Of a stretch of 64,000 bases of DNA, positions 819 to 64,000 are shown piece by piece. Origin of the DNA: Boothiomyces macroporosus (taxonomy: Eukaryota; Chytridiomycota; Chytridiomycetes; Rhizophydiales; Terramycetaceae); contig JADGKB010000044.1 of assembly GCA_027604185.1 (NCBI GenBank), positions 1 through 64,000 of the forward strand, given 5' to 3'. The notes under the pieces were generated by a model. The model saw only the letters and a list, made by a program, of their open reading frames with translations, had not been told where the DNA came from and did not search any database. Made by a program: the position numbers and the translations under genes. Position 1 is the first letter of the stretch, and each line of letters opens with the position of its first letter.

Positions 819-1394
819 ATGTTTGGCAAGCCCAAATTAACAATAGGATCCTGGTTCAGTAAACCCCAACCAAAGGAAGAGACACCTATTGCTGACTCGA
901 ATATCAAGCAGCAGCTGGAAAAGAATTTTAAGCTGGAACTGGATAAACCAATTACCATCGACTCTACGGTGTTTCAACAAGATGATACTAAAAGCTTTTT
1001 TGAGCAAGCTCCTGAAATCAAAGAAATTGGAGTGGTAAATGTCCTTGATTCAGGCTTCATTCTTTGGGTTAAGCGCTGGATTCGCAACAAAGAGATTAAC
1101 CAAGACAGCTGCTATTGCGGTAGGTTTAGGCATCAGTGGAATTCAGGTATTTGATATTAATTGCAGCTGTTGGCATACAATGACCTAATATATGTAAATT
1201 GGCCAAGAGTGGAAGAACTAACCAAAGTTACTTTTGACGCAGATGGCGATGGAAACTTGACCACTAATGACAGTACCTTTAATTGACTCTTAGTAACTGT
1301 TGGCGCGGCTAAAATTATAAAAAATCTCGGAAGCGATTTGCCGTCAATCGGAGCATTCGGAACTGGTTTCATTGTAGGTTATCGCTACAGCTGA
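819..1394 (+). CDS. FUN14 family mitochondrial outer-membrane protein
   Basis: Removing three introns (1036-1054, 19 nt; 1147-1166, 20 nt; 1273-1293, 21 nt) gives an intact 171-residue protein. The spliced C-terminal half reads FGLSAGFATKRLTKTAA, GLGISGIQLLAYNDLIYVNW, then FDADGDGNL and GAFGTGFIVGYRYS. This is the FUN14/FUNDC1 pattern: glycine-rich helices around a DADGDG loop and a terminal GF..G.R. Family members sit in the mitochondrial outer membrane, and FUNDC1 recruits LC3/Atg8 in mitophagy. The N-terminal 70 residues are polar; I did not identify a definite LIR motif. Unspliced, the gene looks shattered into three frames, so it is an easy example of the miniature introns. Confidence 0.85.
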
Positions 1395-1458
1395 GTATCG
1401 AGAAGGCGAACGTAGCGTATAATAAATTTTTGGCGTCGAAAGTTTGTTTTTAATCTCA

Positions 1459-2438
1459 ATGTCGCAAGATCCTGATTTTTTATTTGCTGAAGCAGAAAAG
1501 AAGAGCACTCAAAAAGGTTGGTTCGGTGGTAATAAACTGGACGAAGCTGCGGATTTGTACGGACGAGCGGGAAACGCTTACAAGCTTAAACGTGAATGTA
1601 CTAGCAAGATAACATAGTTAAAAAGTCTGGAGAGGCGTTTATGAAGCAAGGAGCAACTCATGAAAAGTTAGGAGAAAGAGATGAAGCGTCAGGATGCTAT
1701 ATTAACGCCTCCAAGAGCTACAAGAAAGAGTTTCCAAAAGGTTATTTGTGCTAATGGCAGAAGCTGTAGAGGCGCTTAAATTGGCTGTAATGATTTTGAC
1801 CGAGAAAGGTACTCTGGGTTTTATAAAGGTCGCTTCTCTTCGGCAGCTTCAAATCAAAAACAAATTGCAGAGATTTACGAGCAAGATATCGGGGATTATA
1901 CTAGCGCAATGGAGGCGTACGAACTTGCTGCGGAATGGTACCAAGGAGAAGATTCTAATGCGTAATTGAATTTAATGATAGTCAAGCAAATGCCTGTTTG
2001 TTGAAGGTTGCTCAATTCGCCGCATCTGCAGCAGATTATGAAAAGGCAGTTGACATATTTGAAAAAGTTGCCAGTAAATCTTTGGACAACAATTTGACAA
2101 AATGGTCTGTTCGTGAATATTTGTTTAAAGCAATGATTTGCGTGTTGTGTTTGAATGTAGCTTTTAGATTGATTCTAGGATCCTATTAGAGCACGAACAA
2201 CCCTTGAAAGATATCAAGCGATGGATGCCACGTTTAGCGGAACCAGAGAATTTACTCTTTGTAGTGTAAAAAAAGATTAATATAGGCTCTCGTAACAGCA
2301 TGCGAGGAATCGGATGCTGAAGCATTCTCAACTGCTTTGGCTGAGTTTGATCGAATGACAAAGCTTGATGAATGGAAGACCTCTTTGCTTTTGATTGTTA
2401 AAAAGAATATTGAAAGTGATGAAGTCGATATCTTGTGA
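1459..2438 (+). CDS. SEC17: Alpha-SNAP (Sec17), SNARE disassembly adaptor
   Basis: With six introns removed (five of 20 nt, one of 22 nt) the frame is 285 residues, the usual length for alpha-SNAP. Family segments appear in order: AEKKSTQKGWFGG near the N-terminus, FKKSGEAFMKQG, EAVEALKLAV, then AAEWYQGEDSNAQANACLLKVAQFAA. The C-terminus reads FSGTREFTL and ends in EWKTSLLLIVKK. Alpha-SNAP binds SNARE complexes and stimulates NSF (Sec18) to take them apart after membrane fusion. The start ATG at 1459 begins MSQDPDFLFAEAEKK, as expected. An AATAAA signal follows the stop within about 10 bases. Confidence 0.93.
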
Positions 2439-2530
2439 ATTTAATAAAGCATGCTAAACCTAAACGTTTGTATGAACTCGGGATTTGGTTTGGGGCCCGA
2501 GAATTTTTGTCGAAACTTGTCATTTTTCCC

Positions 2531-2716
2531 ATGAAATTAACGCTTTCCATACTTGCACTTCCAGTATTTTCAGCTATCGTCTATAAAGTTGGATCGCCTT
2601 GTTCATTGGGTTCTGTCAAGGCAGGCTCTGCGAATACCTGTGGTGGTGCCAACTCTCACTTGATTTGCAAAAGACACAATGTCAAAGGAACAATTGGAAT
2701 ATGTGAAAGAGTTTAG
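2531..2716 (+). CDS. Small secreted Cys-containing protein
   Basis: A 61-residue frame starting MKLTLSILALPVFSA, a convincing short signal peptide. The mature part of about 46 residues has four cysteines and a Gly/Ser/Asn-rich middle, and ends GICERV. No family is recognised. Small secreted cysteine-containing proteins are common effector or surface candidates in parasitic fungi, but this is inference from shape only. An upstream in-frame extension lacks signal features, so the ATG at 2531 is preferred. Confidence 0.5.
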   Translation: MKLTLSILALPVFSAIVYKVGSPCSLGSVKAGSANTCGGANSHLICKRHNVKGTIGICERV

Positions 2717-2796: not shown

Positions 2797-5700
2797 TTAT
2801 ATTACACTGTCAAGTCTATTTAGAATATTGTCCAAATCATCCGCTGTAACGACAGACTTTTCGTAAAGTTCCCTTTCACCGAGCGAAAGCTGCTCAAAAG
2901 CATCAAATAAAGATCCATTTACTTTAATCCGGCTGTTGAGCAACAGTACCATTTCTATCCGCTCTGCGCTGCTCAAGTGCTTGAATTGAGACACAAACAA
3001 TCCATCTATAACATGATTAGGGGTGCCAAATTCTGTTGATCTGAATACTTTGTGGCTTCCACCAAGAATTGGTTTCGTTGTATCCCATTTTTGAAGAATA
3101 CTTTGGAGCAAAGATAGTATCTCAAACATTCTTTCTGATAATTTTACTAGTGCAAATCTGGTACCAGTCACAGAAACAACTTGGACGACTGCCTTGCTAT
3201 CCTGCACCCAAGGCACGTCAAAGTCCATTTCATCCAGCGACTGCAGACATGAAGAATCCACCTTTGAAGACAATCTGGATATAGTTGACCCGAAGCATAA
3301 TTTTGAACATGGCTCTTGCAAATTAAAATGAAATAGAGGCTCCAAGAATTGAGGAAAGCCTTCCTGTTTAATCTCTTTCTTCTGAAAAAGATAACCAGCA
3401 ATTGCACCTGTAGTCAGCAATGAAACAATGATCCTCTTGTTCTCATCCTGTGGAAACACTACTGTATCCTGTACTTGTCGAGGGACTACCTCGCCAGCAT
3501 CAAAGTCAATCGACTTTTTTGACGATGAAAATTTGTAGATACATGTAGAATCCTGCGAACTGGCCAGATAAATTTCATTTTCGTACGTTTTCAGAGAATT
3601 AGCTGGGTGGTTCAAACTAGTCTGAACTCCATGAACTATTCTAATCTTAGCAATCATTTACGTCCTATCAGAAGCCTGAATTTTAATTTGGACTAGGGCA
3701 TTTCCGATCCCTGCAACCAAATAATGGCCAAAATCTGACAGTGAAGTAATTGGCCCTCCAACTGACTTTCCAGGGAGGTGGAGTTTATATTGCACCATGT
3801 TGGATGTGCTACTCCTGCTATACTTTACACTAAATACTAAAACACGTCCTTGGGGGATTCCATTTGCCCACTTTGTCCCTATACATATATATCGCTTGTC
3901 TTGCTTTACCTTCCAGACTATATTAACAAGATTTACTGGTAATGCAAGTTACAATTTCCTGTGGTTTCAGAGGAAATGTGTGATGACAGGTTCCAGAAGT
4001 TGGTTCAATCACTTTGATTGTCCAGGTGCCCTCTCGATTTACTGGTTCGCAGGCAACAACCAGATTCTTTGTTGGTTTATCATAAACCAAAAACTTTGGG
4101 GTCTACATTAGTTTCAATTACGTTTTCTACAAATATCTTTCGGTATTGTTCGTTTTTGGAATAATCGATTTGAATAATGGACAAAATGTTTTCTGTTACT
4201 ACTAGTAATTGGTAATCGATATTTTCGCCTACTGTTTGAGTGATAATAGTGCCAACCTCGATTTGCTCATATGCAAGCTCAACCACTTGAAGTTTATTCG
4301 CGCTTATTTTCAAATGTATTGGTCGATGGTTTGAGTAGGCGATAAGATAATTAGTTGTTGGCATCGCAATTAGTTTTACAGGCAAATTCCCTAGGTTTTT
4401 GAACCGCACTTCTCCAGCGGAAATGATTCCATCTTCCTTTGTGAATTGATAATAAACAATATCTCCATTTCTATTTCCAATTATTAAAAACGATCTTGAT
4501 TGATTACTGATAACTCCTATGGAGTGTGGGATGATGAAAAATGGGTTGCTAGTGGGCATCTGCAATTGTATCGTGTATAAAATATTTGGGGATTCTTTAA
4601 GCGAGTCAAGTGCAACTATTTCAATTGTACCATCATAACTCGCCAACAATAATACTGGTTCTCCGAAAAAGGCTTTGGTGTATAGATCTGAAAACGGCGG
4701 AATATACAGAGATGAAATTTCTTTGCCAAATTCAATTTGGGAGAGCTCAATGATTGCCAAGCTATCGTTTGTTTGATCTACCAAGACTCGTAATAGATAT
4801 ATCATTGATGGGTTTGAGCAAGCCAATACTATTTTGTCTTCATAATTGGCGCCATGGACAATAGTTCCTGTTGCTGGCTTCCAATATTTGGCTTTGTTAA
4901 ACAATTCTGTACCTCTAACAAACATCATTGATCCATCCTCCTTATTTCGCATTTTGGAAATTGTAACGCCTTTGGCAGTTATCTGAACCAAAGTAGCAGT
5001 GTAATCTAGTGTAAATGCATTCAGGGTGGATTGGTTGTGAATTACACCGCAGGCATCGGTGATATCTTCCATGGAGCTTTGGTCCATGAGCATTACTTTT
5101 GTACATCCTGGGTATGATAATACCAATACATAATGTAGTGTTGTAAAACAGTTTATGTTGACTCCCCACATTAACTTTGGCTGGTCAAAATAATCGCATA
5201 GGATTGAACTTTCACAGGGCAGACCACTTTTTACTTCTTTTATGACTCCATTTGGGTATACTCCAGTCGCAAGATACATTGTATCAGACCATGTGTTTGA
5301 ATCTATATAATAATCATGAACTGGCGCTTTGTTTTCAATTGTTCGTGCTGGCCAGAATGTAATCAACTGTCGCTTTGCTTTAATCATAACAATCTCCCCA
5401 TTCGCTTGAGATCCAAAGAGAGAAAGCACAATCATATTTCCATCGTTTGAAAGTACAGTCATTTTTCCAACTGGGTTATGATATTTCGCAATTACAGATA
5501 ACTTCATATTCCAGCTTGGTTTACTCTGAATAGTTTCTTTTGAAACAATAGTTTGCAGAATAGTACCAGTGTCCGTTGCAAAAAATAGCGTCTGAGACAA
5601 ATCTAAACCTTTTTTGGGCATGCTGTCAATTATATGGCAACTAATAATTCCAGATATATCTTTTTTAATAGCAACTTACCACTAATACTGTCATACTGAC

Positions 5701-6834: not shown

Positions 6835-7751
6835 TCATGAACATAGTTGGAATCCACTTTGCGCAACAGTGGCAATGGTAACAGCAGTACCCATCAGAAA
6901 CACCACAACATACATGTCATTGCAAAAAGTATTGTACATGTCAATATAGTCCCAAACACTGCTAATCAATCCCTCATAAAAAGAAGGGTTGAACCCAAAC
7001 TGAATCATTGCAGGTTTCATAATCTCTGGAATGGTGAATTTCTGGGTATTTGTTCTCTTCATTTGTAAGAATCTAATACTAAACAGAACCACTTCAAAAG
7101 TGAAAAACAGTCCCCATGCCGGCTGAATTAGCTTGATGTTACCATTATGTAATCGGATATTCTGATATGTGATGACGCTCCAATATCGTAATGGACAGGG
7201 TGGTTGGCCATGTAATCTAATTGACGGCACATTTGCAAGTACCATACATCCTTTTCAGGGCCAAGGGAAAAGCTCTCGTGTTTATGGTAAATAATCCAAG
7301 TAGCAAATGCGATTGTTGAAAATAATGAAAATAAAACTGCGTGTATCCATCCTAGTGTATCCATAACTGCAGATGCAGCTGGTGACTGTTCTACATAGTC
7401 AAATGGGTCTTGTAAAGGTGGTAATTCGACATCCTTTTCAATCATGTTGCTGAAATCAGCAGGTTTGGTAATTACAGGTTCTTTTTGAGCTGCTGGTTCT
7501 TCATTCACTACTTGTTCTGCTTTTACTTTATCACCGGATTCCGTAGTTGGTGTATCTGTACCAACATCCGTTTCTTCATTCACTTCTTGTTCAACCGATT
7601 CATGAGGCTCTGTTACATGAATATTTTCATTCGATCCTGAATATGTCGACACTATTTTATTCAAGCGAGATTCCCCTGAAGCCAATATTTTTGCTCTCCG
7701 TTGTTCTCTTTTCAATTGTAGTTTTTGTGCTTGAGTCAATTCCTCTGACAT
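6835..7751 (-). CDS. GET2: Get2/CAMLG-type tail-anchored protein receptor
   Basis: One 20-nt intron at 7123-7142 gives 298 residues. The N-terminus MSEELTQAQKLQLKREQRRAKILASGESRLNKI is the basic helix of Get2 proteins, which binds the ATPase Get3. An acidic, low-complexity linker follows. Three hydrophobic segments lie in the C-terminal half, starting WIHAVLFSLFSTIAFATWII, then AWGLFFTFEVVLFSIRF, and the last near VVVFLMGTAVTIATVA. Get2 with Get1 forms the ER receptor that inserts tail-anchored proteins. ATG 7751 is chosen because the nine codons before it start with a non-ATG codon. Confidence 0.85.
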
Positions 7752-8008: not shown

Positions 8009-10061
8009 CTAGTCTTTAAGTGGGTCTACAACATTTCCAAATTCAACTCGCAAACTCAATATCTTACCCAACTCTGTCTTTTTGATTTTCCATTTCTGAT
8101 TCCAGTACTCTTTAACTTCATCTTTATCTTCCATTGATAGCAGAATGCTAATCTGATTTAAGCGAGAGCATATTTCACGCATGTTGTTGAACCTTTGGAT
8201 CATTTGTTTGATTTGTGACTCGAATAGTAGTGCACCAATGTAGTTGAATTTCAGTTGGAATATCTTGATCTCTATTTCTTTAGTAACTTGTTCTAGCACT
8301 AGTTTCACTAGGTATTGTTGATTTTGGTCATTGAATTGGGTATTGAATAATGGATTTAATTGATTTTCGAGGGAAAGACCGAATGAATCTTGCTGGAATT
8401 CATTGATTACATAAGACTTTGCTAGTAGAGTTGATACAATGGGTTTGATTTTTGGTTTGATTGCTTGTTTGAAATAATTTTCAATCCAAGTCTACATTAA
8501 CAATACTTACTTGAACAATCGAATTGTATTTCTTTGAAAAATCGGTAATTATTGATAAACAGGACTTGATCTTTTCCAAAGATAGTTCTGTCGCATATGG
8601 AAACATTCTGGGAAGGTTAGATGTAATATCAGCATCCAATTTGATTATATAGTCACAGCATAATTGTAGATCATTAAGAACAGTTATTGCCTGGCTAATG
8701 CCTTGATCATCCTTGAACAAATTTGACAGATTCTTTTGTAATACACCCATGTACTTTTCTTCCAAGATTCTTCCTAAGATTAGTATCCATTCAAATTAAA
8801 TATCATTCTTGCCAACTTACCTATTTGATTAATGAGGACACAAAGACAATCTGGAGCTGTTTGCCCACCTCTAACTAGCACAGTCTTTAAAATATAGAAA
8901 ACATCATCTACAGATCTCGTACTCTTATTCTCTTCCAATATATTCTTTTTAAGCATTGCTTGCTGAATAGATAATTGAATATCTACTTTTAGCTCCATTT
9001 ACAATTTTCAGTTATAATAATGAAATAATCTAGTAATGTATCCAGTGCAATTTCTCTTTTAATCTTTCTGGTTTCCAAGAACCTATTGAACAAGACTGTT
9101 TTGTTTAGAATCAGCGCAATTTCAGTGATTATCTTGTCCAACTCTCTGGCTTCAGCTGTGCTCTTCCCTGCCTGTATTTCTTTTACCTGGATTAATCAAA
9201 CAGTACCTTGCGGTCAATTTGTTTAGTTTCAATAAACGAATTCAGCACCAGTCTAATCTGTACTTTAATTTCATCCGCAATCTTTTCCAACACTTGCATA
9301 TATAAATCACCATAAAACTTTGACACAATTTCTTGTTGCTTATCAATCATAATTGCTCCATTTTCATAAATAAAAGTGCAACTTTCAACAAACTGCTCCA
9401 AATATTTCTTTGACGAAATCATTTTACACAAGAAATAAGAGTATTTGTTGATACCAAGATGATGCTGGTTCAGTTTGGGGAAGAGCGGAAACAATTCTTG
9501 GATTTGTTTGAAATTCGAGTTTGTAATCGCTTCATCAAAATCTTGAACAAGCAGCTCAATGGCTTTTTCCAATAACAAATCCATTTCTTCAACTATACTT
9601 TTACCCATGAAATCTTCACTTTTTGTATCCAATGTTTGCGTGCGGTTATAAATTTCTTGTATTTGTGCAGTGTTGATTCTAAGGTAGTTTTCAAACAACG
9701 GAATACAGTCCAAGTAATTTCCCTTTGTCAGTTGACTTGAAATAACAAAAGACCACAAAGTCATGTCAATTACATTTTGGTAAATCTGTATACTGCTGCT
9801 TACTCGTGATTTCTGTTTATCCAATGAACGAACTTTTAAAGCAATATTTTCCGCAGATTTAAAAGTCTTTAAAACAATATTAATGAGTCCATCAGTCTTG
9901 TTTTGTAAATCGTTTAGGTGTGGAATACTGCTTTTGAACAGCAACTCTTTGGCTTGCTTTATACTAGACTGTGTATCAATAATAGTTTCCAAATCATCAT
10001 CAATCTTGCTTTCCTTTTGGTTCAGTTCAGCCAACTGGTTCTTGATTTCCAAAATGTCCAT
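8009..10061 (-). CDS. COG4: COG complex subunit 4 (Golgi vesicle tethering)
   Basis: Four introns (20, 20, 47 and 19 nt) removed give 648 residues. Diagnostic COG4 segments are GINKYSYFLCK, SVDDVFYILKTVLVRGG, DCLCVLINQIG and the C-terminal SLRVEFGNVVDPLKD; the N-terminal third is helical. COG4 is a lobe A subunit of the conserved oligomeric Golgi complex, which tethers retrograde vesicles and binds SM protein/SNAREs. The intron near 8770-8816 is 47 nt with GTAAGT and CTAAT motifs, the only clearly longer intron in the window. The start at 10061 is chosen because the upstream codon of the open frame would overlap the divergent small gene at 10079. Confidence 0.9.
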
Positions 10062-13409: not shown

Positions 13410-13982
13410 ATGAACAAGGAATTTGTAAAACAATTCAAGAAATTTGAACCTAAAGTAGACTTATTGCGCAGAGTGCTGCATATCCGTAAAGTATCCAGGA
13501 CAAACAGCGGTGGCAAAGTACGTTCAGTATCCGCAACAGTGGTGATTGGGGATCAACAAGGTAATGCTGGATACGGAATGGGGTCAAGTATAGATTACGC
13601 CGGAGCAGTAGAGAAAGCTACTTTGCAAGCGAAAAAGAATATGCAACACTTTGACTTGTTGGAAAACAGAACTATTTTCAGTGATGTCGATCATAAATTT
13701 CACAAAGTCTCTCTATCTCTAAAAACAGCAAAGCCAGGTATTTAGTTTTTAATATTAGGCTATGGTGTAGTAGCAAATAACTATGTTCACGAAATTTGCA
13801 GATGTATAGGGATTTCAGATTTATATGGAAAAGTAATGGGATCCAGAAATCCAATGAACATTATTAAAGCTACTTTTGAAGCTCTTAATAAACAAAAGAA
13901 GCCGGAAGAGATTGCAAGGATGAGAGGAAAGAAAGTGGTTGATGTTGAGATGACTTACTATGGAACTAGATTGAACCAGTAA
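13410..13982 (+). CDS. MRPS5: Mitochondrial ribosomal protein uS5m
   Basis: One 21-nt intron (13738-13758) gives 183 residues. The segments VRSVSATVVIGDQQGNAGYGMG and EKATLQAKKNM match the S5 N-terminal domain. After the intron, YGVVANNYVHEICRCIGISDLYGKVMGSRNPMNIIKATFEAL matches the C-terminal domain (..DV..KV.GS.NP.N.V.A). The Met-Gly motifs and absence of the eukaryotic RPS2 N- and C-extensions indicate the bacterial-type mitochondrial protein. No strong targeting presequence is visible in MNKEFVKQFKKFEP, which is basic and short. Confidence 0.85.
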
Positions 13983-17245: not shown

Positions 17246-18628
17246 TTAACGGTCAGCCTTGATAATTGCAGGCTTTGGCGACTTTTCCAACTCGTAGTGA
17301 GAGAAAACCATCTCCCACTTACCCAAGGAATGGATAATACGATCTCTTTGTCTAAAATCTGGCAATGGCTTTTCCAATAAAGATTCTTGCAAGTGGGATT
17401 TCATTGTATGGCGAACAAACAATGTGGTAGAGAATTTACCTGGTTGGAATACATCAACCACTTTCTGTACAACTTCGTTGAATGAAGTGTATTCAAATTC
17501 AGTTCCTTCTCTAGTGTGTTTTGGTAGGAAAGCTTTTACTGGAATAGTCGTTTCAAAAGATGCATACGAACAAATATCTTCTGGAGTGACGTGGATAGTG
17601 TAGTAATACGGACCAAGCAAACCATTGGCAGAATAACCACATGGATCAAAGGCATAGTCATCAATCAAAGACTCTGGATAGATCTTTGCAATACCAGATT
17701 CGTTGTAAATTCTGTGCTTTTGTCCATCAAATACGTGCTTCTTGGCATCAATATTATGCGGCAACTTTCCTTGAGCAAGTTCTTCTTTGGTGCGCCAAAA
17801 TGTTTTCATTGCATCTTGGTTCAAGTCGGTCATCAAGATTTCCAAGGTAATATCATCTTCATCCTCGTCGTTTTCTACGTCATCTGGAATAGAGTTTCCA
17901 TCAGAATCTAAAAGAAGAGGAGTTCCAACATACAAGCACCAATGATCTCCATTGATTTTCCCAACAACATATCCTGAGGTTTCAAAAGACATTGGAACGA
18001 AAATATTGTCTAAATAAGCAACCTAATATAAATTACTATTTACCTCATCCCCAAACTTTCCATGGGGAAATTCTTGTCTTTCAGGGAACAGGAATGATTT
18101 TCTAGAGTAGAAAATCGCTTCCACTTTGTCCAGTTTGCAATGCTCTTTTGCAATTTCCAAAATACGAGGAACCGCGTGCAACAAGGTAGTTGTTCCGCAA
18201 GTTTTGAGCATAAGTCTGTTTTTGTAAACAAACATGGATGACTCGCTGAGCAAGTAGGCATCAACGAATTCGTTTTTGAGAGTTGAAAGCACTTGGCACT
18301 GTACAATCTTCAACATATCTTCCCAAACCGATTGGTCAACAGTTCTGAGGCCAGCGCGCTTGAACTTGTAAAGTCCATTTTTCTGGATCACATCTTTTGT
18401 CGCATAATGGTGGATAGGTGCTTCCATTTCAGAAAGCTCACTATCAGACGTATCAGTGCGTGAGAGCGATGGTCGATAATCAGTTGGGGGTTTTTCAAAC
18501 CAAATCTCGAGCAATTTTTCTGGTCCTTCAAAGCCTGAAAGAGTGAGTTTTTGCTCCAAATTGATTTCAGTCTGATAAATTTGAGAGTTCATCAAGTTAC
18601 TAGATGGGCTATTGCTAATAGAAGTCAT
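17246..18628 (-). CDS. SPE2: S-adenosylmethionine decarboxylase proenzyme
   Basis: One 21-nt intron gives 453 residues. Hallmarks: GFEGPEKLLEIWF near the N-terminus; AYLLSESSMFV, where the chain self-cleaves before the second Ser to create the pyruvoyl cofactor; KTCGTTTLLHAVP with the catalytic Cys; FPERQEFPHGKFGDEV; and after the intron IFVPMSFETSGYVVGKINGDHW. The enzyme makes decarboxylated AdoMet for spermidine and spermine. The first true ATG is at 18628; the first 30 residues are a Ser/Asn-rich extension. Confidence 0.95.
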
Positions 18629-20723: not shown

Positions 20724-20728
20724 GTATT

Positions 20729-22122: not shown

Positions 22123-22264
22123 TTTTTTGTAAGGAGCTGTACTCTTTGAGCTTCCTATGTATTCGTTTGTAGATATTTTGAGCTAAAAATCGATACTATA
22201 AATGACAATGGCTAATTTTTTCCGCCAATGGATTGGAATTCGGAAATCAATTGTATATATATAT

Positions 22265-24942: not shown

Positions 24943-26753
<1,811 letters not shown>

Positions 26754-29691: not shown

Positions 29692-29723
29692 ATCTATTGT
29701 AAAACGCGCTTTCGGAAAAATAA

Positions 29724-31098: not shown

Positions 31099-31150
31099 TT
31101 CAATGGAAAGTTGAGAGGTTGAGAATCGGAGATTTATCAACCAACGTCAG

Positions 31151-32648: not shown

Positions 32649-32696
32649 TGGCCAAAGCAAAATACACTTACGTAAGTGAAAAGGGGGTTTATATTT

Positions 32697-42442: not shown

Positions 42443-42472
42443 AAATCTCTTGCTTCATTAATTTCGTTTTAA

Positions 42473-44702: not shown

Positions 44703-44973
44703 TATTGACGCCTCTTGAAAGTTGAAAAAGAGTGGAGACCAAAATTGTGGCATTTCAGTCACATGATTTGACACGATCAAAGTGGAATCACAGATTCTTT
44801 GAAATAATCCTTGGTCTAAATTAAAATGTGAAAAGACAGGCTATTTAAGGGACCTAAATAAAGTACATCAAAGAAAAAAAATTGAAATTATTCGGCATTA
44901 TCCATCAGCGTTATCGCAATACATCTTTATTCCTCACCGTAATGAGAGAAATCATACACATTAATTTGCTAAG

Positions 44974-50698: not shown

Positions 50699-53525
50699 CT
50701 ATAATATTCTTGCGTATGCTAAATTATTTTGAGATTTTTGCCGTATTATATACCACTTTCTTAGTTCCTCTATCCAAAATACTATACTGCTTAGTGAAAT
50801 AAGGTATAGCCAGTCATATATCGACAGCGGCTCTGTCAGAAAGATGGAATTTAGGAAGGGGAAATGCACTACCAATACCTGACCGAACAGTACCAGCGAT
50901 AATGCATAGTTGTACATTTGATTGGTGAAAAAGCCCTTTGAGAATATTGATCGGGCTTCTGACCTGCATGATAAAGAGTTCCATAATGCAAATAAGACTA
51001 TTAATGTGAATGACTGGGGTTAAAAATGCCATACCATGGTTCTAGTTCGATCGTCCAAACCATCTTCCAGTTCTTCTTGAATGAACACAGTCAGCGTGCC
51101 GATTACTATAATGATAGCATTCGTTACCACTCTAACTAACAGCAAATTAGTTAGGATTGGCTCATCCTTTTTTCTAGGTGGTTTAGCACAGATTACGGGA
51201 TCCATTGGCTCTACTCCAAGCGATTGAGCGACTGGACCATCGCAAATAATATCTAGAGTTAATACAGCGTACTGATCCATAAAATCTGCATTGCGTTCAG
51301 GGGGTTTGGCAATCCAAAAAGAGAGCACATTGCAACCAAAATCAGTGCAGCAAGCGAAGTGCATAATTGAAAGGTTAAAAAGTTTTTGATGTTGTAAAAG
51401 ATATTCTTCCCTTCATCGATTGCATATATAATTGTTCCCAGATTGTCATCAACCAGGATCATATCTGCGGCTTCTTTCGCAACGTCTGTTCCGTTACCCA
51501 TAGAGACCCCAATATCAGCCAAACTCAAAGCTGGAGCGTCATTGACTAGATAAACCCAAAAATACCTCCATCGCCCGTCATCGCAACAATATTCCCTCCT
51601 GCCTGCAGAGCCTCTACGATCTTCAATTTGTGAGAGGGAGTGGTCCGATAGTATAAGCTTGAAACCAATACTGAACCTTTCAACTCTTCAAAACTCATCG
51701 CATCTAGTTGATTCCCAGAATAACTCGTGTCCTTGACTTTAATGCCAACCTGTTCTGCAATAGCTTTAGCAGTTCCATCTAAATTAATAGCGGATTACAC
51801 GAATCGCCTGTTATCATTATAATATGTATTCCGGCATCATTAAGTTTCTCTATTGTTTTAATTGTTTGCGGTCGAGGAGGGTCATAAACCCCAATGAATC
51901 CCACGAACGTTAGAGAGTCTAACTCGCTTCCAATAGCAAAAGTAAGAATTCTCAGTCCACTTGACGATATCTGGCTTTCATATTCTATAAATTCTCGTTT
52001 CCTGTCCTCTGTGATTGGTGATTTAACATTATTTCCGTGCAAGTAATATTTACACTTTGACAAAACTGCCTCAATGGCACCTTTTACATAGTACTGAGTA
52101 TCAATTTGATTAGAGGATTCTACAGCCATCCATTTTACCTCTGGATTAAATGGTATTTCGGAAATCCGAGTGTGGTACTGTTTGTTAACCAGTATAAACC
52201 TTTCTTTCATCCTCCAACTTTGCCTTTGAAAAAAAGTCCATAATAGCGACTTCTGTCGGCTGGCCATTCAGAACACCCTCCTCGTCATAGTAAGAGTTAT
52301 TGCAGATATTTCCAACGCTAAGCAATCGCCTAATGACAGGATGATTCAGCTGAGGTGAAAATGAATAGTTCTCAATGTCTATCTCTAATTTATCTGCCGC
52401 AGCGACGAGTAGAGTAGCCACCATTTTGTTTGTAGTGATAGTACCAGTCTTGTCAATGCAAACTACATTTACTGAACCGAGAGACTCTACTGAAGGTAAT
52501 TTCTTGACAATTGCACTATGTTTTGTCATCCTTAATACCCCCAGAGCCAGAGTAACTGTCACAACCACAGGAAGGCCTTCTGGAATTGCGGCAACGGCTA
52601 AACTAACTGTATATTAGCACAAATTACCAGCAATTTGAAATACCTCCAACCATTGCTTTCCTTGTAAGATTCCAAGAAGACTGATGACGGCAATCAGTAC
52701 AAATGAAGCAAACGATAAATGTTTCCCCAATTCATCCATCTTTAGTTGCAATGGAGTCTTTGGCTTGTCAACCTCTGACACCATTCTTAAAACTGATCCT
52801 AATTCAGTTTTATTTGCAGTTCCAAAAACCAGTGCAGTTCCATGGCCATTTCGAACTAGTGTCCCCATGAATACTAAATTTGTTCTGTCCGCAAAGGACA
52901 AGTCATTAGAGTATGAATGAATAACTTTGGTATCCTTTCTACTTGGTTCTGTTTCTCCTGTAAGATTCGACTCGTCTACTTCCAAAGATACGCTCTCCAA
53001 TAATCTACAATCCGCGGGTATTCTATCTCCTCTACTAAACTTTACTACATCCCCAGGAACTAATTCACTCGCCAGAATTTCAACTGTATGGCCGTTTCTG
53101 ATTAACTGTTTAAATTACCTTACGACGTGGCAGTGCGGTGGTGCTAATTTTGTCAAAGCTTCGATACTCTGGCTTGATTTGTACTCTTGAACAAACGCAA
53201 CTGTATTAATAAAATGTACCAGTCATTACTATAAATATTGTCTTGGGTTAACCTTATTTACCATGGTGATTGACACTGCATCCGACACTTGTCCAACCAA
53301 TAGAGATAATAAAGCGGAACATAACAGCATCAATATCAACGGATCCTTGAACTGCTCAATAAACCTTTCCAAAATTGATTCCTTTTCTTCCAATTCAATT
53401 TCATTTGAACCATACTTTACTCTACGCGATGGAATTTGGTCAGATGTTAAACCAGTAAACGTAGTTTCCAGATATTCACAACACTCCTCTGGCGTCTTGG
53501 ATGAAAATTTAAATGATTCCCCCAT
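50699..53525 (-). CDS. PMR1: Golgi Ca2+/Mn2+ P-type ATPase (PMR1/SPCA)
   Basis: Nine introns (19-22 nt) give 880 residues. P-type hallmarks: SNLTGETEP in the actuator domain; [19 protein letters not shown] in M4; the phosphorylation site [18 protein letters not shown]; and, across an intron, MTGDGVNDAPAL. AIPEGLP and the M6 region [19 protein letters not shown] match secretory-pathway ATPases rather than SERCA or PMCA, and the length fits. It fills the Golgi with Ca2+ and Mn2+. The last helix ends a few bases from the DNAI3 stop, convergent. Confidence 0.93.
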
Positions 53526-54234: not shown

Positions 54235-56069
54235 ATGCCGTCTCAAATAACTGCGGTTGCATTATGGAACTATACAGCTCAGGAAGTATTTCTTTTGGTA
54301 ATAGTAGGACAACGAAATCAGTTTTCGCGCTGGAGATATGATCAACATTGTGGAACTGTGTAACCAAGTAATATCTATTAATGAAAGGATTGGTATGAAG
54401 GTACCATCAATGGGCTTACTGGATTGTTCCCTGCGAATCATGTAAAGTTGGTAGATCATAAGACTGAGAATGAAGATAATGAGGGTTCAGAGTCTGGTGA
54501 ATCTGAAGGAAACGCTTGGCATGTCGTAACCACCGAAAACGGGACGGTTTATTACTGGAATGAACAGACTGGGGAAACTTCTTGGGAGCCTCCGTCTAAA
54601 GATGGAAAGAAAAGCATTGGTAGCGACGGGGCACCTAAATTGGATTTAGCTAATCTCCCTCACGTTGTATCAGTAAAAAATTGATAACATCAGGATCATA
54701 TTGAGCTTGTCCCTCCAGAGCTCATTCGTAGAGAGGGTCAATTGGCATACAAGGTAAAAAAAGATTATGGCGGAGTGGAGCCAAAAAGACAACACTCTTG
54801 GCACAACTCGTGGGCTGTCGTATGCGTCGGATATCTAATATTTTACAAAGAAGAGCCATCGAAATTAAAAAAGAAGCAAGGTTTGATTGGCTAATACCAG
54901 GAGACAAACCAGTAATTCCTGTACATGTCCAAATGCTGGACGCGGTTACTTTAAAGAAGGAAGCAAAAGACGCAGGACGTAAAAACTTGATATCTGTACA
55001 GTCCAGAAGTGGAGCGGTGTTGCTGATACAGCCAAATACTGAAAACGAAGTCAATGAATGGTTTACCACAATATCAGAGTCAACAAAAGAAAATTCCACC
55101 CAAGCCGAAGTAAAATATCTCTCAATTTAGTATGAAAATGTCATGTCGAGACTATTTGCAAAGGATGATTCCCCAAAAGACATAAAGGAGGATAAAAAGA
55201 AGGGACCAGTACGGGATAATAGCAAAAAAAGTTTGACTGGTTTGGAAGATGATGAAGCCAAAGGAAAAGTCAAATCTAAACTAAACGCATTCTTCAAGAG
55301 AGTCGGAGATATCAAAGAGAATGTCGCAAATCCTGGGAAGAAGGAAAAGGATGCTCCTGTGGCGGTGGAAAGTAAATCCAAATTGATGGTAGATCTCGTG
55401 TTTGGTGGAACATTGGAAATCCTTGCATCTAAAAATTCTTCAAAGAAAATACCATTACTCATTGAAAAGTGCGTTGTTCATGTGGAACAGCATGGAGGTT
55501 TGTGTATTTAATACAGGTCTTGAGAGTCAAGGTATCTACAGATTATCCGGAAACGCTTCAACAGTACAAAAATTTAGAGCTCAGTTGAACCAAGACAATT
55601 ATCAGGATATTTTCGAACCTGCACAAGACGTAAATGTTATAGCTGCACTGCTAAAACGTAAATAATAGCTGATTACAGTTTTCTTTAGAGAAGTCCAGAT
55701 TCCAGTCATTCCATTCACAATGTATAACCAATTCATAGACAGCATGAAAATCGATGACTATAACAACAGATTATGTACCATCAAGACTCTAGTTCAGGCA
55801 TTACCAAAAGTACACTACGATGTATTGGAATATATGATGCGTCATTTAGTCAAAGTAAGTGCACAGAGTGAAGTCAACAAAATGGAACCTAGCAACTTGG
55901 CGATTGTATTTGGACCTAGTTTGATCAGACCAATGGAGAGTGGAGAAAGCGACATGTATGCAAATATGATGAACATGTCTTTCCAGAATGGATTAATCGA
56001 AGCAATGATTAACCAAACAGAGGTAGCTCTTTTTAATCGTAGTGGTTATTTGATGGAAACCCAAACTGA
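54235..56069 (+). CDS. SH3-WW-PH-RhoGAP protein (ARHGAP12/15/27-like)
   Basis: Eight introns (19-22 nt) give 556 residues. SH3: AVALWNYTAQEDNEISFRAG, NQDWYEGTINGLTGLFPANH. WW: WHVVTTENGTVYYWNEQTGE with SWEPPSK. PH: REGQLAYKV, WAVVCVGYLIFYKEEP, NEWFTTISES. RhoGAP: GLESQGIYRLSGNAS with the catalytic arginine, LFFREVQIPVIPF, MEPSNLAIVFGPSLIRP. The enzyme turns off Rho-type GTPases. The last intron adds WLFDGNPN and a stop at 56069, 43 bases before the convergent FAHD1 stop; unspliced reading would overlap FAHD1. Confidence 0.92.
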
Positions 56070-58587: not shown

Positions 58588-60394
58588 ATGGCTGGTGATA
58601 AGGAAAAAAAAGAAAAGAAACCAAGAAGAGTTGGAAAAAGAAATAAGGAAGCCAGCGTCGAGAATATTACTGAAGCTGCAGCCAAAGTAGCTCTCGACAA
58701 TAACCGCTCTTCTACTGGTGTGTTGACTTCAGAAAAAAATTCCAGAGACGTAAAGGTAATTCCATAATTTAAATTAGATTGAATTGTACTCTTTGAATTT
58801 CTTTTCACAAAATTTGATCAACGAAAGTACCATAGAATTGAACTATGGAAGACGGTACGGTTTAATTGGACCAAACGGGTCTGGTAAATCCACTTTCCTT
58901 CAATCCTTGGCAGCTAGAGAAGCACCAATTCCAGAACATATAGATATTTATTTATTGAATGCGGAATATGCACCTACAGAAATGTCTGCTTTGGAAGCAG
59001 TTATTAACGACGCTGAACTTGAAATCAAGAGATTGGAAAAACTGATGGAAGATATCTTGTCTGAAGATCCTGAATCACCATTGTTGGATGGTATTTATGA
59101 CCGTATTGAGGATTTGGATCCTGCAACATTTGAATCCAGAGCTGCCATGTTGCTGGATGGTCTTGGCTTCAGTCCTCAAAGAATGAAGATGAAGACAAAG
59201 GATTTGTCTGGTGGTTGGCGTATGAGAGTAGCTTTGGCCAAAGCTCTTTTCATCAAGCCTACCATGTTGATTCTCGATGAACCAACTAACCACTTGGATT
59301 TAGGTGCTTGTGTGTGGCTTGAAGAATACTTGTCCAAGTATGATAGAATTTTGTTGCTTGTTTCCCACTCTCAAGATTTCCTCAACACTGTCTGTACCAA
59401 CATTATCGAACTTGACCACAAGAAACAATTGAAATATTATACTGGTAATTACGACATGTATATCAAGACCAAGAAGGAAAACGAAGTCAACCAAATGAAA
59501 GCTTACAAGAAGCAGCAAGAAGAAATTGCTGATATCAAGAAATTCATTGCATCTTGTGGTACTTTTGCCAACTTGGTAAAGCAAGCTAAATCCCGTCAAA
59601 AGATTTTGGACAAGATGGAAGCTGATGGTTTGATTGAAAAAGTTCCCGATGAAAAAGTATTTGACTTTACTTTCTGGTCTGCTGGTCCTCTTCCACCTCC
59701 AGTATTGGCATTCAATGACATGTCTTTCTCTTACAGTGGCAAAATGGATGATTTGATCTACAAAAACTTGGAATTTGGTGTTGATACCGAATCAAGAATT
59801 GCTTTGGTGGGTCCTAACGGTGCTGGTAAATCCACATTGTTGAAATTGATGGCTGGCACACTGCACCCAACTGCTGGTACCATCAGCAGACATTCTCACT
59901 TGAAAATTGGTGTTTACTCTCAACATTCAGCAGATCAATTGACTTTGGATAAATCCGCAGTTGACTATTTACGTAGTAAATTCCCTGAAATGCCACAAGA
60001 TTTGCCATACTGGCGCCAAAATGTTGGCCGTTTCGGGTTGACTGGAAATGCACAATTATGTCCAATTGAACAGTTGTCAGATGGTCAAAGGGCACGTATT
60101 GTTTTCTGTGAATTGTCCTTACACAGACCTAATCTTTTGCTTTTGGATGAACCTACTAACGCCCTTGATATTGAAACCATCGACTCATTGGCTAGAGCAA
60201 TCAACCGATTCGAAGGTGGTGTAGTACTAGTATCCCACGATTTCAGATTGATTCGTCAAGTAGCAGAGGTAATTATAAATTAAATTTAGCAAATCTGGGT
60301 ATGTGAAAATGGAAACATGAACTTGTGGGATGGATCCATTGCACAATACAAGGAAAAGTTGCGTAAAGAAGTCACAAAGAGTTTGCCAAAGTAA
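58588..60394 (+). CDS. ARB1: ABC-F ATPase, ARB1/ABCF2 type, ribosome biogenesis
   Basis: Introns of 22 and 21 nt give 587 residues. Two ABC cassettes: Walker A GPNGSGKS then LSGGWRMR and [10 protein letters not shown]; Walker A GPNGAGKS then LSDGQRAR and [10 protein letters not shown]. The linker between is coiled. Phrases such as [50 protein letters not shown] and IWVCEN match ABCF2 closely. The Lys-rich N-terminus ([17 protein letters not shown]) fits. ARB1 acts in 40S and 60S assembly and shuttles between cytoplasm and nucleus. Confidence 0.95.
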
Positions 60395-60503: not shown

Positions 60504-61217
60504 TCACTTGATATCTTTTCTAATCTTTTCCTTTGTAATCCCACATTCCTTATCATGGGCAGGAAAGATAGTATCAACATCCAGGCCCAGTATCTTTTCC
60601 ACACTCTTTTTAGCATCCTGCATACAGCAAGTAGTAAGCCCAAAGATGCTACAAGAGGGGCAAGAAGAAAATGGAGAGTAGTTCATTAACGAATCACCAA
60701 CCATTACACTCTTGCTTTCCTTGTGTAAATACGACATTGATCCAAGTGTGTGTCCATGAGTGGTAACACAAACTAATCCGCCAATTGGTTGGTTATCTGT
60801 AATAGGTACCAGATACCCTTTACCAACTACCACTTTACTCCCATGATGAAACCTTCTAGTTGCATTAAACAAGAGCGTATCACCATTATCAGCATTGTAT
60901 TTCTTTTCACCGGTCAAGTAAATAAACTCTTTCTCGTTTGCCATTATCTTTACATTTGGATAGTCTTTAATCAAAAGAGGAATTGCGGCAATATGATCCA
61001 AGTGCCCGTGAGTTATAAAGATGTAGGAGAGCGTATCACCGTTCAATTGCGTTTTTATATCTTGAAGGAGTTGTGTTGAGTGTGCATCATAGCCGGCATC
61101 GATTAGCGACCATCCAGAGTCGTGTTTGATTAGGAACGTGCTGACTGGGATTGTTATTGGCCCTTGCGTCCATGGGAGAGTATTTCTGAATAGTCCTGGC
61201 TTCACTTCAGTGTACAT
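60504..61217 (-). CDS. Metallo-beta-lactamase-fold hydrolase
   Basis: Intronless, 237 residues. Motifs: FLIKHDSGWSLIDAGYD; FITHGHLDHIAAIP, the metal-binding HxHxDH; TTHGHTLGSMSYLH with the third His; VMVGDSLMN with the bridging Asp; FPAHDKE with the last His. The active site is therefore complete. The substrate is not indicated; such proteins include glyoxalase II-like, lactonase and quorum-quenching types. A Cys-rich stretch (SSCPSCSIFGLTTCCM) is unusual. ATG 61217 is the first true start. Confidence 0.85.
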   Translation of the reverse strand: MYTEVKPGLFRNTLPWTQGPITIPVSTFLIKHDSGWSLIDAGYDAHSTQLLQDIKTQLNGDTLSYIFITHGHLDHIAAIPLLIKDYPNVKIMANEKEFIYLTGEKKYNADNGDTLLFNATRRFHHGSKVVVGKGYLVPITDNQPIGGLVCVTTHGHTLGSMSYLHKESKSVMVGDSLMNYSPFSSCPSCSIFGLTTCCMQDAKKSVEKILGLDVDTIFPAHDKECGITKEKIRKDIK

Positions 61218-61321
61218 TAATGTATATGAAAGCAAGTGCTTTTTAAACTTTTTTTGCCGAGGACTGACCGCAGCATTGGCACGTGAATATTCTTGAAACC
61301 AGTCATAAGATAAAAGGTAGT

Positions 61322-61910
61322 TTATTTCAACCTGGATAAACCTTCCTTTACAGACTCGGTAAATGAAGGAGACACATTGGTGAAATACGCTTTAATCAGC
61401 AGTTCACCTAGTCGTCCCTTCATAGATCCAACAAATTGGTCGTTATAAAAAACTACAAGTTCATCCTTGTTCTTGTAAAACAGTAACCGAGACTGTTTCT
61501 TGAAATGCTTGATTGCCAACAAACTCTTGAATTCTTGGATTTCTTGTTCGCTAGGTTTTTCCAGTTGCTTGTTTAGTAATCGAAGGAATCCATTCCTCAT
61601 GTGCGCTCCATCCGTATCCCTTTTTAATCACAGAATACCTGTATGGAATGATTTGCAGACAGCATTCATCATAGATGTCATTGAATCGCTTTGGTAGATA
61701 GAAAGAGATGGTGTAAGCAGTGATATTGAGAAAAGTAACTTTTCTAGCTCCTAAACCTACCAAATGGAATCGCTCAAGAACAGTGTTTGGGATTAGAGTC
61801 TTTGTGTTTGGTTCAATAGTGGTTTGGGTTTGATCGCAATATACCTTTGAGGAAATAATACCTTGATTAGTATATTTAAACCTAGTATTAGTATATTTAA
61901 ACCTATTCAT
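61322..61910 (-). CDS. Chalcone-isomerase-fold protein, AIM18/AIM46-like
   Basis: One 19-nt intron gives 189 residues. FHLVGLGARKVTFLNITAYT, ISFYLP, CCLQIIPYR joined across the intron to DTDGAHMRNGFLRLLNKQ, then LGELLIKAYFTNVSPSFTES fit the chalcone isomerase-like fold of yeast Aim18 and Aim46. Members in fungi are mitochondrial; no catalysis is known. Codons 3-16 contain a direct duplication (61866-61883 and 61887-61904), encoding two RFKYTN units. The Arg/Lys/Asn start may be a mitochondrial presequence. Confidence 0.8.
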
Positions 61911-62013
61911 TATGATCACACTATACCTGTATCAATAAGACTTACCTATATTAAAATGGCGTACCAAGAGGAAGAGCAAGTTTTCGAATTACATTCATTT
62001 TCGGACAATCTCA

Positions 62014-64000
62014 ATGCAACAATTGGAAAAGTTCAAAACATTCGTCTTCTATTTCGATGACCTGGATTCAACCAAATACCAAAAGATAACTGAATTTGGA
62101 GCTAAAATTAAAAAGAATCTCTCCTTGGAAATCACTCATTTTATCAGCAACCAAAATGAAATCATAGAATTCGCTAGAGTGATGAATAAATTAGTCTGGA
62201 GTGAAGAGAGTAATTATTGCTAATATAGAACTAGCTACTGTTCTAAATAAACTAGAGATAATCAGAGAACAAAACAAGGAAAATAGAATGAAACTCGTTC
62301 CTCCAATAAAGCGAGATCCAAGAGTAGATCCATTAAAAGAAAGCAGAAAATCAAACAAGCTGCTACAACTGCTATCAATGGAAAAGACTGGGGGAACTAG
62401 AAAAGAGTTTACCCTTCCGTTTATCCAGATTCTAGAAACTTCAAACCAATACAAGCCAATCTTAGAATATCAAGGAAAACTACAATCTTCAATAATATAC
62501 AGCCGCAAAGACAAGCCTTCTGCCTTTTCACTAGAAAAACAAATCAACCTCAAAGAATCAATTTCATCAAAAACTAATTCTACTGTTAATAGCTGTATGA
62601 CTACATCAACGGCAAAGAGTGTAAAAAGAAAAACTGTTGGTGGCTACTGTGAAAACTGCAATGTAAAGTACTCTTGCTTAAAGAAACACTTGGAATCATT
62701 CAAGCATCAAAAATTAACTAAATCCAACTTGTTTCAGTCTGTGGATGTGTTTATATCGAAACTGAATCAAAATAGAAAGAGCCTGGAAAAGAAATCTATA
62801 GAAAATATAGGTTTTAAAGAGATGAATGGTTTAAATAGTTTCAAGGAAAGAGAATTAATGGATATTTTAGAGCAAAAGGAGGTGCAAACTATGGAAGGAA
62901 AAGAGACGGTGGATTTTGTAATGTCAGAGACCCTTGATAATGGTGAAAAGATGGATAGAGTAGATGCGAATGATAAAAACTTGGATATTCCTATGGTATC
63001 TGAAATAAATGGTGGTCAAGAGAATACAGCGATGGGCAAAATGATAGAGGAAAGCAATACTGAAGCTTGTTTGAATAATAACGAAAAAGTTGAAGAGTCT
63101 AATTTGACAGAGGCAGTAGTGGATAAAGACATGGAAATTGTTTATACTAGTGATATTCAAAAGCATGATTCGGTTGGTGAAACATCTGGTTCAAAGGATA
63201 ATACACACGAGGAACTTTTCAAACCCCAAGACACTCTAGAAAAACAACAAGAAATACAGAGTACAATCTTCAATAAAGATGCAACTGTGGATGAAAAGAA
63301 GGAAGAGATATTACCAATTGAAGTGAAATGTGAAAAATTAAAAGAAAAAGGGTTTGTGATTAAAATTCCCAACATTCACTATGTACCTCGAACTCTTGAA
63401 TCAAAAAATACTGAAACCAAAACTCCAGATCAAGATGAATTCAAGGAATGTCAGCAGGAAATAAAAAATGAGGTTGTTGGAAAGCTTGAAGCAGATCAGG
63501 TAGTGAATAAAGAGGTACCAAACAAAGCGGATATAGAACATCCCATTATACCTGGTTTTGAAGAAGGCGAAAAAAGTTCAGCAATAGAGATAATTGTGGA
63601 AAACCTAACAGAAGCACATATGAACGACTGTCAAGTACAATCTACGTGCGATATTGTCGAAAATGATGGGCAAGATCTAAATATCGCATCTTTTAAATCT
63701 ACGCTTGACAATATGACGGATTGTTTAACGAGTTACTTTACTGCTGGTAAAGATGTTGATATGCAATCAACAAAGAGCCAAAGCGAGATGGATATAGAAA
63801 TATTACAGCATAGTAGTGTTGAATTGGAAGATGGTGAATTAATTGAAGAATTGGAAGAAGGTGAATTATTTGAAAAGGATTTGAAATGTGAGTCTATAGA
63901 ACAATTGGAGAATGTGGAAAAACAGCTTGATGCTTTTCGTAACAAAGAAATAGTGAAATTAGACCGAAAAGATGCGAATGTAGATATTCAAGAAAATATT
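62014..64000 (+). CDS. DBF4: DBF4-type Cdc7 kinase regulatory subunit, partial
   Basis: Open from ATG 62014 to the window edge, with one 19-nt intron near 62211-62229; 656 codons without a stop. Motif N (BRCT-like): KFKTFVFYFDDLDSTKYQKI, ..EITHFISN. Motif M: RKEFTLPFIQILETSNQYKP. Motif C: GYCENCNVKYSCLKKHLESF and KHQ, a CCHH zinc finger. These are the three conserved Dbf4/Dfp1 regions that activate Cdc7 to phosphorylate MCM. About 430 acidic, repetitive residues follow the finger, much longer than usual. An ATG at 61957 may begin an upstream exon, but I found no in-frame splice. Confidence 0.85.

Follow-up and report, generated by a model that had tools for sequence, protein, structure and literature searches.

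Ultrashort, near-uniform introns of about 20 nucleotides in the genome of the chytrid fungus Boothiomyces macroporosus

A narrow class of intron lengths

We found that the genes of Boothiomyces macroporosus, a chytrid fungus (Chytridiomycota, Rhizophydiales, Terramycetaceae), are interrupted by GT...AG segments of mostly 19–23 nucleotides (nt), most commonly of 20 nt, which we interpret as U2-type spliceosomal introns shrunk genome-wide to near-minimal length; we put the probability of this reading at roughly 0.94. The stretch in question, called the window below, comprises 64,000 nt of a contig of 109,397 bases (C44) in a genome of 15.2 Mb assembled into 216 contigs. The original prediction, made on the letters of the window, had described a near-uniform class of introns of this size in what it took for a fungus-like genome, and on both points it proved right.

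The length class is visible without any gene model. In a bridging test, a segment was counted when two open frames of 45 codons, blocked in its presence, become continuous once it is removed. With bare GT...AG ends in the window alone, the counts peak at 20 nt (33 segments); the background is noisy, with 20–28 at single lengths in some controls. With GTA...[ACT]AG ends in 264 kb of the genome, the test returned 45, 92, 65, 25, and 16 segments at 19, 20, 21, 22, and 23 nt, respectively (243 in total), and 2 at 24 nt, while ten other motif pairs gave 28–79 over 19–23 nt and no comparable peak; three of these ten (GTC, GTG, and GTT) differ in the third base only and may include a few real introns. 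A signal-free gene model, based on codon usage, GT, and AG only, with a fixed intron penalty and lengths of 12–80 nt weighted equally, called 55 introns, 25 of which fall at 20, 21, and 22 nt (12, 8, and 5), and three controls lacked such a peak. This model yields too few introns for purposes other than a signal-free check and was replaced by one with learned splice signals.

The learned-signal model was run twice. When lengths of 12–80 nt were allowed, 261 of 287 introns were of 19–23 nt, seven of the remaining 26 were of 17, 18, or 24 nt, and 19 were spread across 27–78 nt. The run with lengths of 12–32 nt, which covered 274 kb in 22 non-overlapping pieces from 21 contigs and is the source of all genome-wide rates given here, detected 293 introns and 141 genes, 103 of them intron-bearing. 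As many as 281 introns measured 19–23 nt and 122 exactly 20 nt, whereas five control dinucleotide pairs produced 16–25 calls at 19–23 nt and no peak. A narrow length distribution below approximately 25 nt, which defines an ultrashort intron class, is thus seen across the sampled pieces of the genome. The density amounts to 1.57 introns per kb of coding sequence, which extrapolates to about 16,260 introns in the genome.

In the window, the run with lengths up to 32 nt produced 40 gene models, of which 28 contain introns; all 72 of these introns are of 19–23 nt. This window-level run pooled overlapping loci and hence is not the source of genome-wide rates. It missed at least five further introns, two in PMR1 (recognized by homology) and three in the gene at position 819 (read by eye). 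Of the approximately 90 introns announced for the window, 77 are therefore accounted for, and a total of about 90 is plausible. The uniformity claimed for the window holds for all model introns, but not for a likely 47-nt intron of the COG4 gene (8774–8820), the only long exception that we found there. The COG4 protein joined across it matches COG4_N, COG4_m, and COG4_C, and the gene splits into two models when lengths are limited to 32 nt.

This exception bears on the alternative that ultrashort introns are the majority, while a separate class of longer introns exists and is under-called, which we consider rather unlikely. Besides the COG4 intron, which carries a GTAAGT donor and a TACTAAT branch site, there are two further candidates of 50 nt with GTA[AT]GT donors, and GTA[AT][ACT]T donors bridge 6 segments at 51–80 nt and 11 at 81–120 nt, as against 0–1 and 1–3 in two controls, the motif representing six sequences and the controls two each. 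Yet, strong donors gave three matches at 31–50 nt (one and two in the controls) and none at 51–120 nt, and no second peak appeared with lengths up to 80 nt. Moreover, at least two of the 19 calls at 27–78 nt were wrong, and the scan covers lengths of up to 120 nt. From an early model, a 77-nt intron of SEC17 and a 49-nt intron of PMR1 were rejected; after comparison with homologs the true lengths are 20 and 22 nt. It may also be that longer introns need stronger signals, as the COG4 intron, a single case, would suggest.

Anatomy of the introns

Anatomy statistics refer to 292 of the 293 introns, one without three preceding bases having been dropped. The donor consensus is AAG/GTAA (the slash marks the exon–intron boundary), with G at −1 in 50%, A at +3 in 90%, and A at +4 in 60% of introns, and the introns end in TAG or CAG. 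GT-AG ends with a donor consensus of this kind are expected of U2-type spliceosomal introns, as is a branch-point motif near the 3′ end. The latter had been proposed in the original prediction and is clearly present: a strict YTRAY is properly positioned in 211 of 292 introns, compared with 703 of 11,703 exonic 20-mers ending in AG (72% vs. 6%). The excess is not merely a product of the model rewarding the motif, since the same A peaks are seen in the bridging set, where the branch motif was not rewarded; among its 92 introns of 20 nt, A occupies position 14 in 76% and position 15 in 64%.

As for position +5, we found no preference for G (17.5% vs. 19.2% in the genome background). T makes up 46.6% at +5, no higher than at the following positions. 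G at +5 is a usual consensus feature of U2-type introns, not a requirement, and the commonest intron of Stentor has U there (PMC9505925). A trade-off between G at −1 and G at +5 was looked for and is absent (p 0.89), and G at +5 shows no clear dependence on intron length.

In the 211 introns with a strict motif, the distance from the first G to the branch A is 14, 15, 16, and 17 nt in 85, 77, 27, and 14 cases, respectively, so that 189 lie at 14–16 nt; it exceeds 17 nt in three introns, is 10–12 nt in five, and is never 13 nt. From the branch A to the intron end there are 5 nt in 86 and 6 nt in 92 introns (178 together), and 4 nt or less in 13. There is no correlation between the two distances (Spearman −0.05, p 0.43), and the product of their distributions predicts the lengths approximately: 6.6, 39.4, 70.1, 51.0, and 23.9 introns are expected at 18, 19, 20, 21, and 22 nt, and 2, 40, 89, 40, and 25 are observed. 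On this ground, the lower edge at 19 nt corresponds to about 14 plus 5 nt, the floors of the two distances.

Agreement with homologs and with public gene models

Calcineurin A, SEC17, and PMR1 jointly hold 23 introns, 22 of which can be tested against homologs. In 21 of these, removal fits the homologs cleanly, and one leaves a one-residue difference, in line with the claim that conserved sequence runs through the junctions. For calcineurin A, the best alignment to a solved chain spans seven junctions, none of which shows a gap, and does not reach the eighth intron. In turn, five of six SEC17 junctions are gap-free against solved alpha-SNAP, and the sixth accounts for the one-residue difference. 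For PMR1, we used a profile of 116 homologs from which the four closest sequences (Boothiomyces and Terramyces) had been excluded. The fully spliced protein scores 1307.2 bits. Each of the nine introns, if retained by itself, reduces this value: the loss ranges from 8.7 to 1,231.7 bits with read-through and from 123.7 to 1,225.4 bits with translation halted at the first stop. Small read-through costs (8.7, 10.4, and 12.0 bits) belong to three 21-nt introns and are expected for seven added residues.

The public B. macroporosus PMR1 protein (P0001) reaches 1103.4 bits with the same profile. It equals our spliced PMR1 except for residues 93–122 and the part after residue 776, and its low score is due to its differing near the start and to its ending within the last intron, of 21 nt, which was not removed. 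Similarly, the public SEC17 protein (P0241) is identical to ours apart from a skipped 29-residue exon between the last two introns. The differences between public and present proteins are places where the two gene models remove different segments. The public models excise five PMR1 introns and the first four SEC17 introns exactly as we do; the short introns are thus already implicit in the public annotation. Such introns damage gene models in these public genomes, the PMR1 of this contig, truncated by an unremoved 21-nt intron, being one example.

Traces of short introns in related fungi

Public proteins were surveyed for inserts of at least seven residues in 47 homologs of PMR1, SEC17, and calcineurin A, comprising the top 15 from each gene's list of 120 and two additional PMR1 sequences; B. 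macroporosus itself contributes two of the 47. We detected 12 such inserts, and six of them sit exactly at B. macroporosus intron positions. Seven-residue inserts occur at two PMR1 intron positions in Boothiomyces sp. JEL0866 and at one calcineurin A intron position in Terramyces, while Kappamyces PMR1 proteins carry 11 residues at one intron position (one Kappamyces) and 10 at another (two strains). Back-translated by eye, these inserts fit retained GT...AG introns of 21, 21, 21, 33, and 30 nt. A nine-residue insert of Globomyces, which would fit 27 nt, is found at a position that is intronless in B. macroporosus, and the remaining five inserts belong to more distant fungi. Below the threshold, protein P0130 has a four-residue insert at an intron position. 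The JEL0866 calcineurin A (P0121) aligns end to end with that of B. macroporosus, and insertions or deletions of at least four residues are absent from the alignment.

Judged from these annotation errors in proteins, the pattern suggests that old intron positions are shared and that their lengths have been shrinking toward Terramycetaceae. The Globomyces and Kappamyces proteins hint at introns of about 27–33 nt, a range that again comes from back-translation by eye, and one order may hold a graded series.

The inserts in relatives also speak to the possibility that assembly or sequencing errors break the reading frames and that the GT-AG segments are chance picks. On a raw assembly, short introns do show up as frame breaks, and the public annotation of the same contig treats some of the breaks differently. 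Errors would hardly produce, however, a sharp length peak for GTA...AG only, as seen in the 264-kb bridging test, or the branch-motif excess, or the clean fit to homologs of 21 of 22 testable introns with a one-residue difference in the last. In relatives, which were sequenced separately, proteins carry inserts at these positions too. We regard this explanation as highly improbable.

Splicing machinery

The small nuclear RNAs (snRNAs) U1, U2, and U6, which U2-type introns call for, are encoded in the genome. U1 has a canonical 5′ end and scores 68.8 bits, 0.7 under the Rfam cut-off of 69.5; U6 lies over its cut-off and has a canonical ACAGAGA. Two U2 genes over the cut-off share a canonical branch-binding sequence. 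The 3′ halves of these two genes (L023 on C80 and L024 on C178) clearly differ, the 5′ recognition part being common to both.

Among the protein factors, SF1 is present. The large subunit of U2AF scores 230.7 bits on raw DNA, below the curated cut-off of 310.3, because introns break the match; the spliced protein aligns with solved U2AF65 chains in its C-terminal domain as well as in both RNA-binding domains. The original prediction had called for the inspection of U1, U2, SF1, and U2AF, and what was found there, together with the branch motif and U6, supports its interpretation of the segments as spliceosomal introns. All three branching factors Yju2, Cwc25, and Isy1 were also detected, as was a METTL16-family gene, although the family also matches bacteria. 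Introns are present in four of the five protein genes that we modeled (all but Yju2) and measure 19–24 nt, plus one of 17 nt in Isy1. The Cwc25 locus occurs twice (L040 on C49 and L041 on C100) with identical predicted genes on both sides, which may reflect a recent duplication or two haplotype contigs.

The alternative of elimination from DNA, as with the internal eliminated sequences of ciliates, instead of removal from RNA, can draw on the short inserts in coding DNA of Paramecium germline genomes (PMC8354472). It is rendered extremely improbable by the GT-AG ends and the spliceosomal branch motif at fixed spacing, and the snRNAs and splicing factors are there. Furthermore, chytrids are not known to have a second nucleus.

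It is a tentative idea, and on balance an improbable one, that the machinery is specifically adapted to tiny introns and performs poorly on longer ones, through a replaced N-terminus of Isy1 and the absence of RED. The predicted N-terminus of Isy1 aligns with none of eight solved Isy1 chains (alignments begin at query residues 33–42), and a search of the 3-kb locus for the usual N-terminal motif, using a regular expression, gave nothing convincing; the Isy1 N-terminus of Stentor is likewise reported to be non-conserved (PMC9505925). RED_N and RED_C had no candidate in the genome in searches made without a positive control, so that absence of RED is not established. On the other hand, Yju2 matches its profile from the first position, and Cwc25 retains the Gly-rich plug that Stentor lacks; its N-terminal MGGGDLNLKKSWHP, upstream of which the gene model starts 43 residues earlier, is identical to the solved CWC25 homolog. 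The start of Isy1 is a prediction only and holds two candidate introns in succession with few bases between them (L043, 1225–1300), which leaves the start uncertain, and the comparison includes no chytrid with ordinary introns.

How such introns might be spliced

Each intron is composed of two independently varying pieces, one leading from the first G up to the branch A (mostly 14–16 nt) and one from the branch A to the final G (5–6 nt), and the 19–22-nt class, with a sharp lower limit of 19 nt, results from adding them. Recognition would rely on AAG/GTAA, a YTRAY-like branch site, and a TAG or CAG end, which U1, U2, and U6, ordinary in their recognition sequences, would read together with SF1 and the large subunit of U2AF, both still present. 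U1 would first pair with AAG/GUAA, SF1 and then U2 would occupy the branch site, and the tri-snRNP (small nuclear ribonucleoprotein) would displace U1. Within a 14-nt span, the U6–donor pairing and the U2–branch helix would lie almost end to end with nothing between them, and donor position +5 would thereby be freed from selection for G; loss of G at +5 would fit a donor read via its exon side and first four bases. The miniaturization probably occurred within Rhizophydiales, older introns having eroded where they stood.

The original prediction spoke of extreme geometry, and the measured distances bear this out. For the human B complex, a donor-to-branch minimum of about 52 nt without altering the structure was estimated, and in human extracts about 50 nt were needed for efficient assembly, 35 nt abolishing assembly on one substrate (PMC6692369). 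With mostly 14–16 nt between the first G and the branch A, either the arrangement of the B complex would have to differ in B. macroporosus, or the contacts would have to form sequentially. In its most complete form, the proposal is that a near-standard fungal spliceosome works here at a hard geometric floor: the donor-to-branch distance would be at least 14 nt as the U6–donor and U2–branch helices lie end to end, the branch-to-end distance at least about 5 nt, position +5 would be released, the Isy1 N-terminus replaced convergently with that of Stentor, and the Smu1/RED pathway, on which human cells depend when introns are short, missing. We find this full combination doubtful.

Points that weigh against the interpretation as miniature U2-type introns

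Several observations count against regarding the segments as a genome-wide class of spliceosomal introns, or temper that view. Removal by the spliceosome is inferred from the DNA sequence. The splice-signal profile was trained on 19–22-nt introns of the same sequences and rewards the branch motif, which is why the signal-free tests matter. The run that yielded 293 introns bars any above 32 nt by construction, and introns of 18, 21, or 24 nt that lack an in-frame stop are under-called. A strict YTRAY is missing from 81 of 292 introns, and where it occurs the branch A is taken as the A of YTRA on the strength of the motif. The two-piece expectation is not fully matched either: 20-nt introns are in excess (89 vs. 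70.1), and those of 21 nt (40 vs. 51.0) and 18 nt (2 vs. 6.6) fall short. Finally, the Terramyces calcineurin A insert sits where other homologs also vary in length, which makes it a weaker case.

Relation to known ultrashort introns

The B. macroporosus introns belong with those of nucleomorphs, heterotrich ciliates, and mikrocytids as a further case of ultrashort spliceosomal introns, and differ from them in being found in a fungus that is intron-rich and has most of the splicing factors checked. Our literature search, confined to open-licence papers, with subscription papers and preprints outside its scope, turned up no fungus for which such introns have been reported.

In chlorarachniophyte nucleomorphs (Bigelowiella natans and Lotharella oceanica), there are 951 and 1,011 GT-AG introns, mostly of 18–23 nt with a mode of 19 (PMC4035089). 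Many such introns per genome are a shared feature, yet the nucleomorph is a relic endosymbiont nucleus, whereas B. macroporosus has a fungal nuclear genome with some 16,000 introns (extrapolated) and a mode of 20. In Paramecium, which had been named as another example, introns are of about 25 nt (PMC5014332).

Stentor coeruleus has 8,806 introns in 18% of its genes, of 15–16 nt, with the branch A at position 10 in most and no strong branch consensus; the commonest intron is GUAAUUUUUAUAUAG, and the recognition sequences of U1, U2, and U6 are canonical (PMC9505925). Thus, Stentor resembles B. macroporosus in its genome-wide tiny introns, the five nucleotides after the branch A, the GUAAUU donor of GUAAUUUUUAUAUAG, and the canonical snRNA recognition sequences, but its introns are shorter, with an earlier branch A and no strong branch consensus, and it has lost the Cwc25 plug which B. 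macroporosus keeps. The 224 introns of Mikrocytos mackini, of 16–17 nt, are likewise very short and very uniform (PMC10245619). They reside in a parasite with a strongly reduced spliceosome, in contrast to the intron-rich B. macroporosus, in which most of the checked factors are present.

In comparison with ordinary fungal introns, U2-type signals, SF1, and the large subunit of U2AF are held in common. Densities quoted for fungi are 2.53 introns per kb of coding sequence for Rozella and 3.93 as the mean of two Chytridiomycota, compared with 1.57 here; the mean lengths quoted from a survey of 644 fungal genomes are 63 nt and more (PMC8476143).

So far, tiny introns were known in giant ciliates, a reduced parasite, and a relic nucleus, none of which is close to the organisms whose splicing is understood. 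Thousands of 20-nt introns in a fungus whose U1, U2, U6, SF1, U2AF large subunit, and branching factors can be recognized would allow the minimum geometry of splicing to be studied close to yeast and human. B. macroporosus can be cultured.

Genes and other features of the window

The three genes of the window that were compared with homologs have the following introns. SEC17/alpha-SNAP (1459–2438, plus strand; solved homolog and model) has introns at 1598–1617, 1741–1760, 1809–1828, and 1962–1981 (20 nt each), 2157–2178 (22 nt), and 2266–2285 (20 nt). Calcineurin A (24943–26753, plus strand; solved homolog) has eight, at 25145–25164 (20 nt), 25497–25516 (20 nt), 25629–25647 (19 nt), 25794–25814 (21 nt), 26033–26052 (20 nt), 26274–26295 (22 nt), 26371–26390 (20 nt), and 26574–26595 (22 nt). 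Those of the Ca2+/Mn2+ ATPase PMR1 (50699–53525, minus strand; homolog profile) are at 53242–53261 (20 nt), 53201–53219 (19 nt), 53098–53118 (21 nt), 52607–52627 (21 nt), 52178–52199 (22 nt), 51779–51798 (20 nt), 51546–51565 (20 nt), 51253–51272 (20 nt), and 51014–51034 (21 nt).

On the plus strand, the first gene (819–1293), FUN14-like by eye, consists of three frames read by eye and was not called by the model; its introns are at 1036–1054 (19 nt), 1147–1166 (20 nt), and 1273–1293 (21 nt). The other plus-strand genes have model support. An aconitase-family gene (36497–38521) has introns at 37125–37146 and 37194–37215 (22 nt each) and 38137–38155 (19 nt). Two genes at 41439–43513 contain 41811–41830 (20 nt) and 42064–42084 (21 nt) in one case, and 42688–42707 (20 nt) and 43346–43364 (19 nt) in the other. 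A WD40-repeat gene (47826–50674), which gave WD40-type matches only and which the original prediction named DNAI3, is split by introns at 48279–48298 (20 nt), 48404–48424 (21 nt), 48971–48991 (21 nt), 49478–49500 (23 nt), 50032–50052 (21 nt), 50479–50498 (20 nt), and 50612–50631 (20 nt). There is also a SH3-WW-PH-RhoGAP gene (54235–56069) with eight introns of 19–22 nt (54286–54307, 54368–54387, 54673–54693, 54881–54900, 55110–55130, 55498–55516, 55658–55678, and 56023–56042) and an ABCF-type gene (58588–60394; ABC_tran and ABC_tran_Xtn matches, earlier named ARB1) with introns at 58756–58777 (22 nt) and 60269–60289 (21 nt). The last gene (62014–64000) runs past the window edge and has an intron at 62210–62228 (19 nt).

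On the minus strand, the model places introns in a RSE1/DDB1/CPSF1-type beta-propeller gene (2797–5621) at 4103–4121 (19 nt), 3918–3936 (19 nt), and 3641–3661 (21 nt), and in COG4 (8009–10061; model and domains) at 9187–9206 (20 nt), 8983–9002 (20 nt), and 8492–8510 (19 nt), in addition to the likely 47-nt intron discussed above. An HMG-box gene (20729–22035) has introns at 21075–21093 (19 nt), 20981–21001 (21 nt), and 20896–20917 (22 nt); HMG-box genes occur three times in tandem on this strand at 18903–23282. There are further introns in a PX-WD40 gene (44927–46240) at 45330–45348 (19 nt) and 44969–44988 (20 nt), and in a gene for a metallo-beta-lactamase-fold protein (60504–61910) at 61620–61638 (19 nt) and 61332–61351 (20 nt).

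Single or paired introns of other genes between 7123 and 47253, given here irrespective of strand, are model calls only: 7123–7142, 13738–13758, 18023–18043, 22594–22613, 22420–22439, 23898–23919, 28621–28640, 33796–33815, 32744–32764, 35794–35813, 40630–40648, 44412–44430, and 47234–47253.

Rfam and tRNA scans of the window returned nothing at threshold. At 28265–34048, three long unspliced open reading frames match no Pfam family at E 0.001; the three adjacent gene models there carry repeated DTGSSD motifs and appear aspartic-protease-like by eye. Upstream of the first genes, positions 1–29 and 746–774 form a 29-nt direct repeat, 97% identical and 745 bases apart from start to start.

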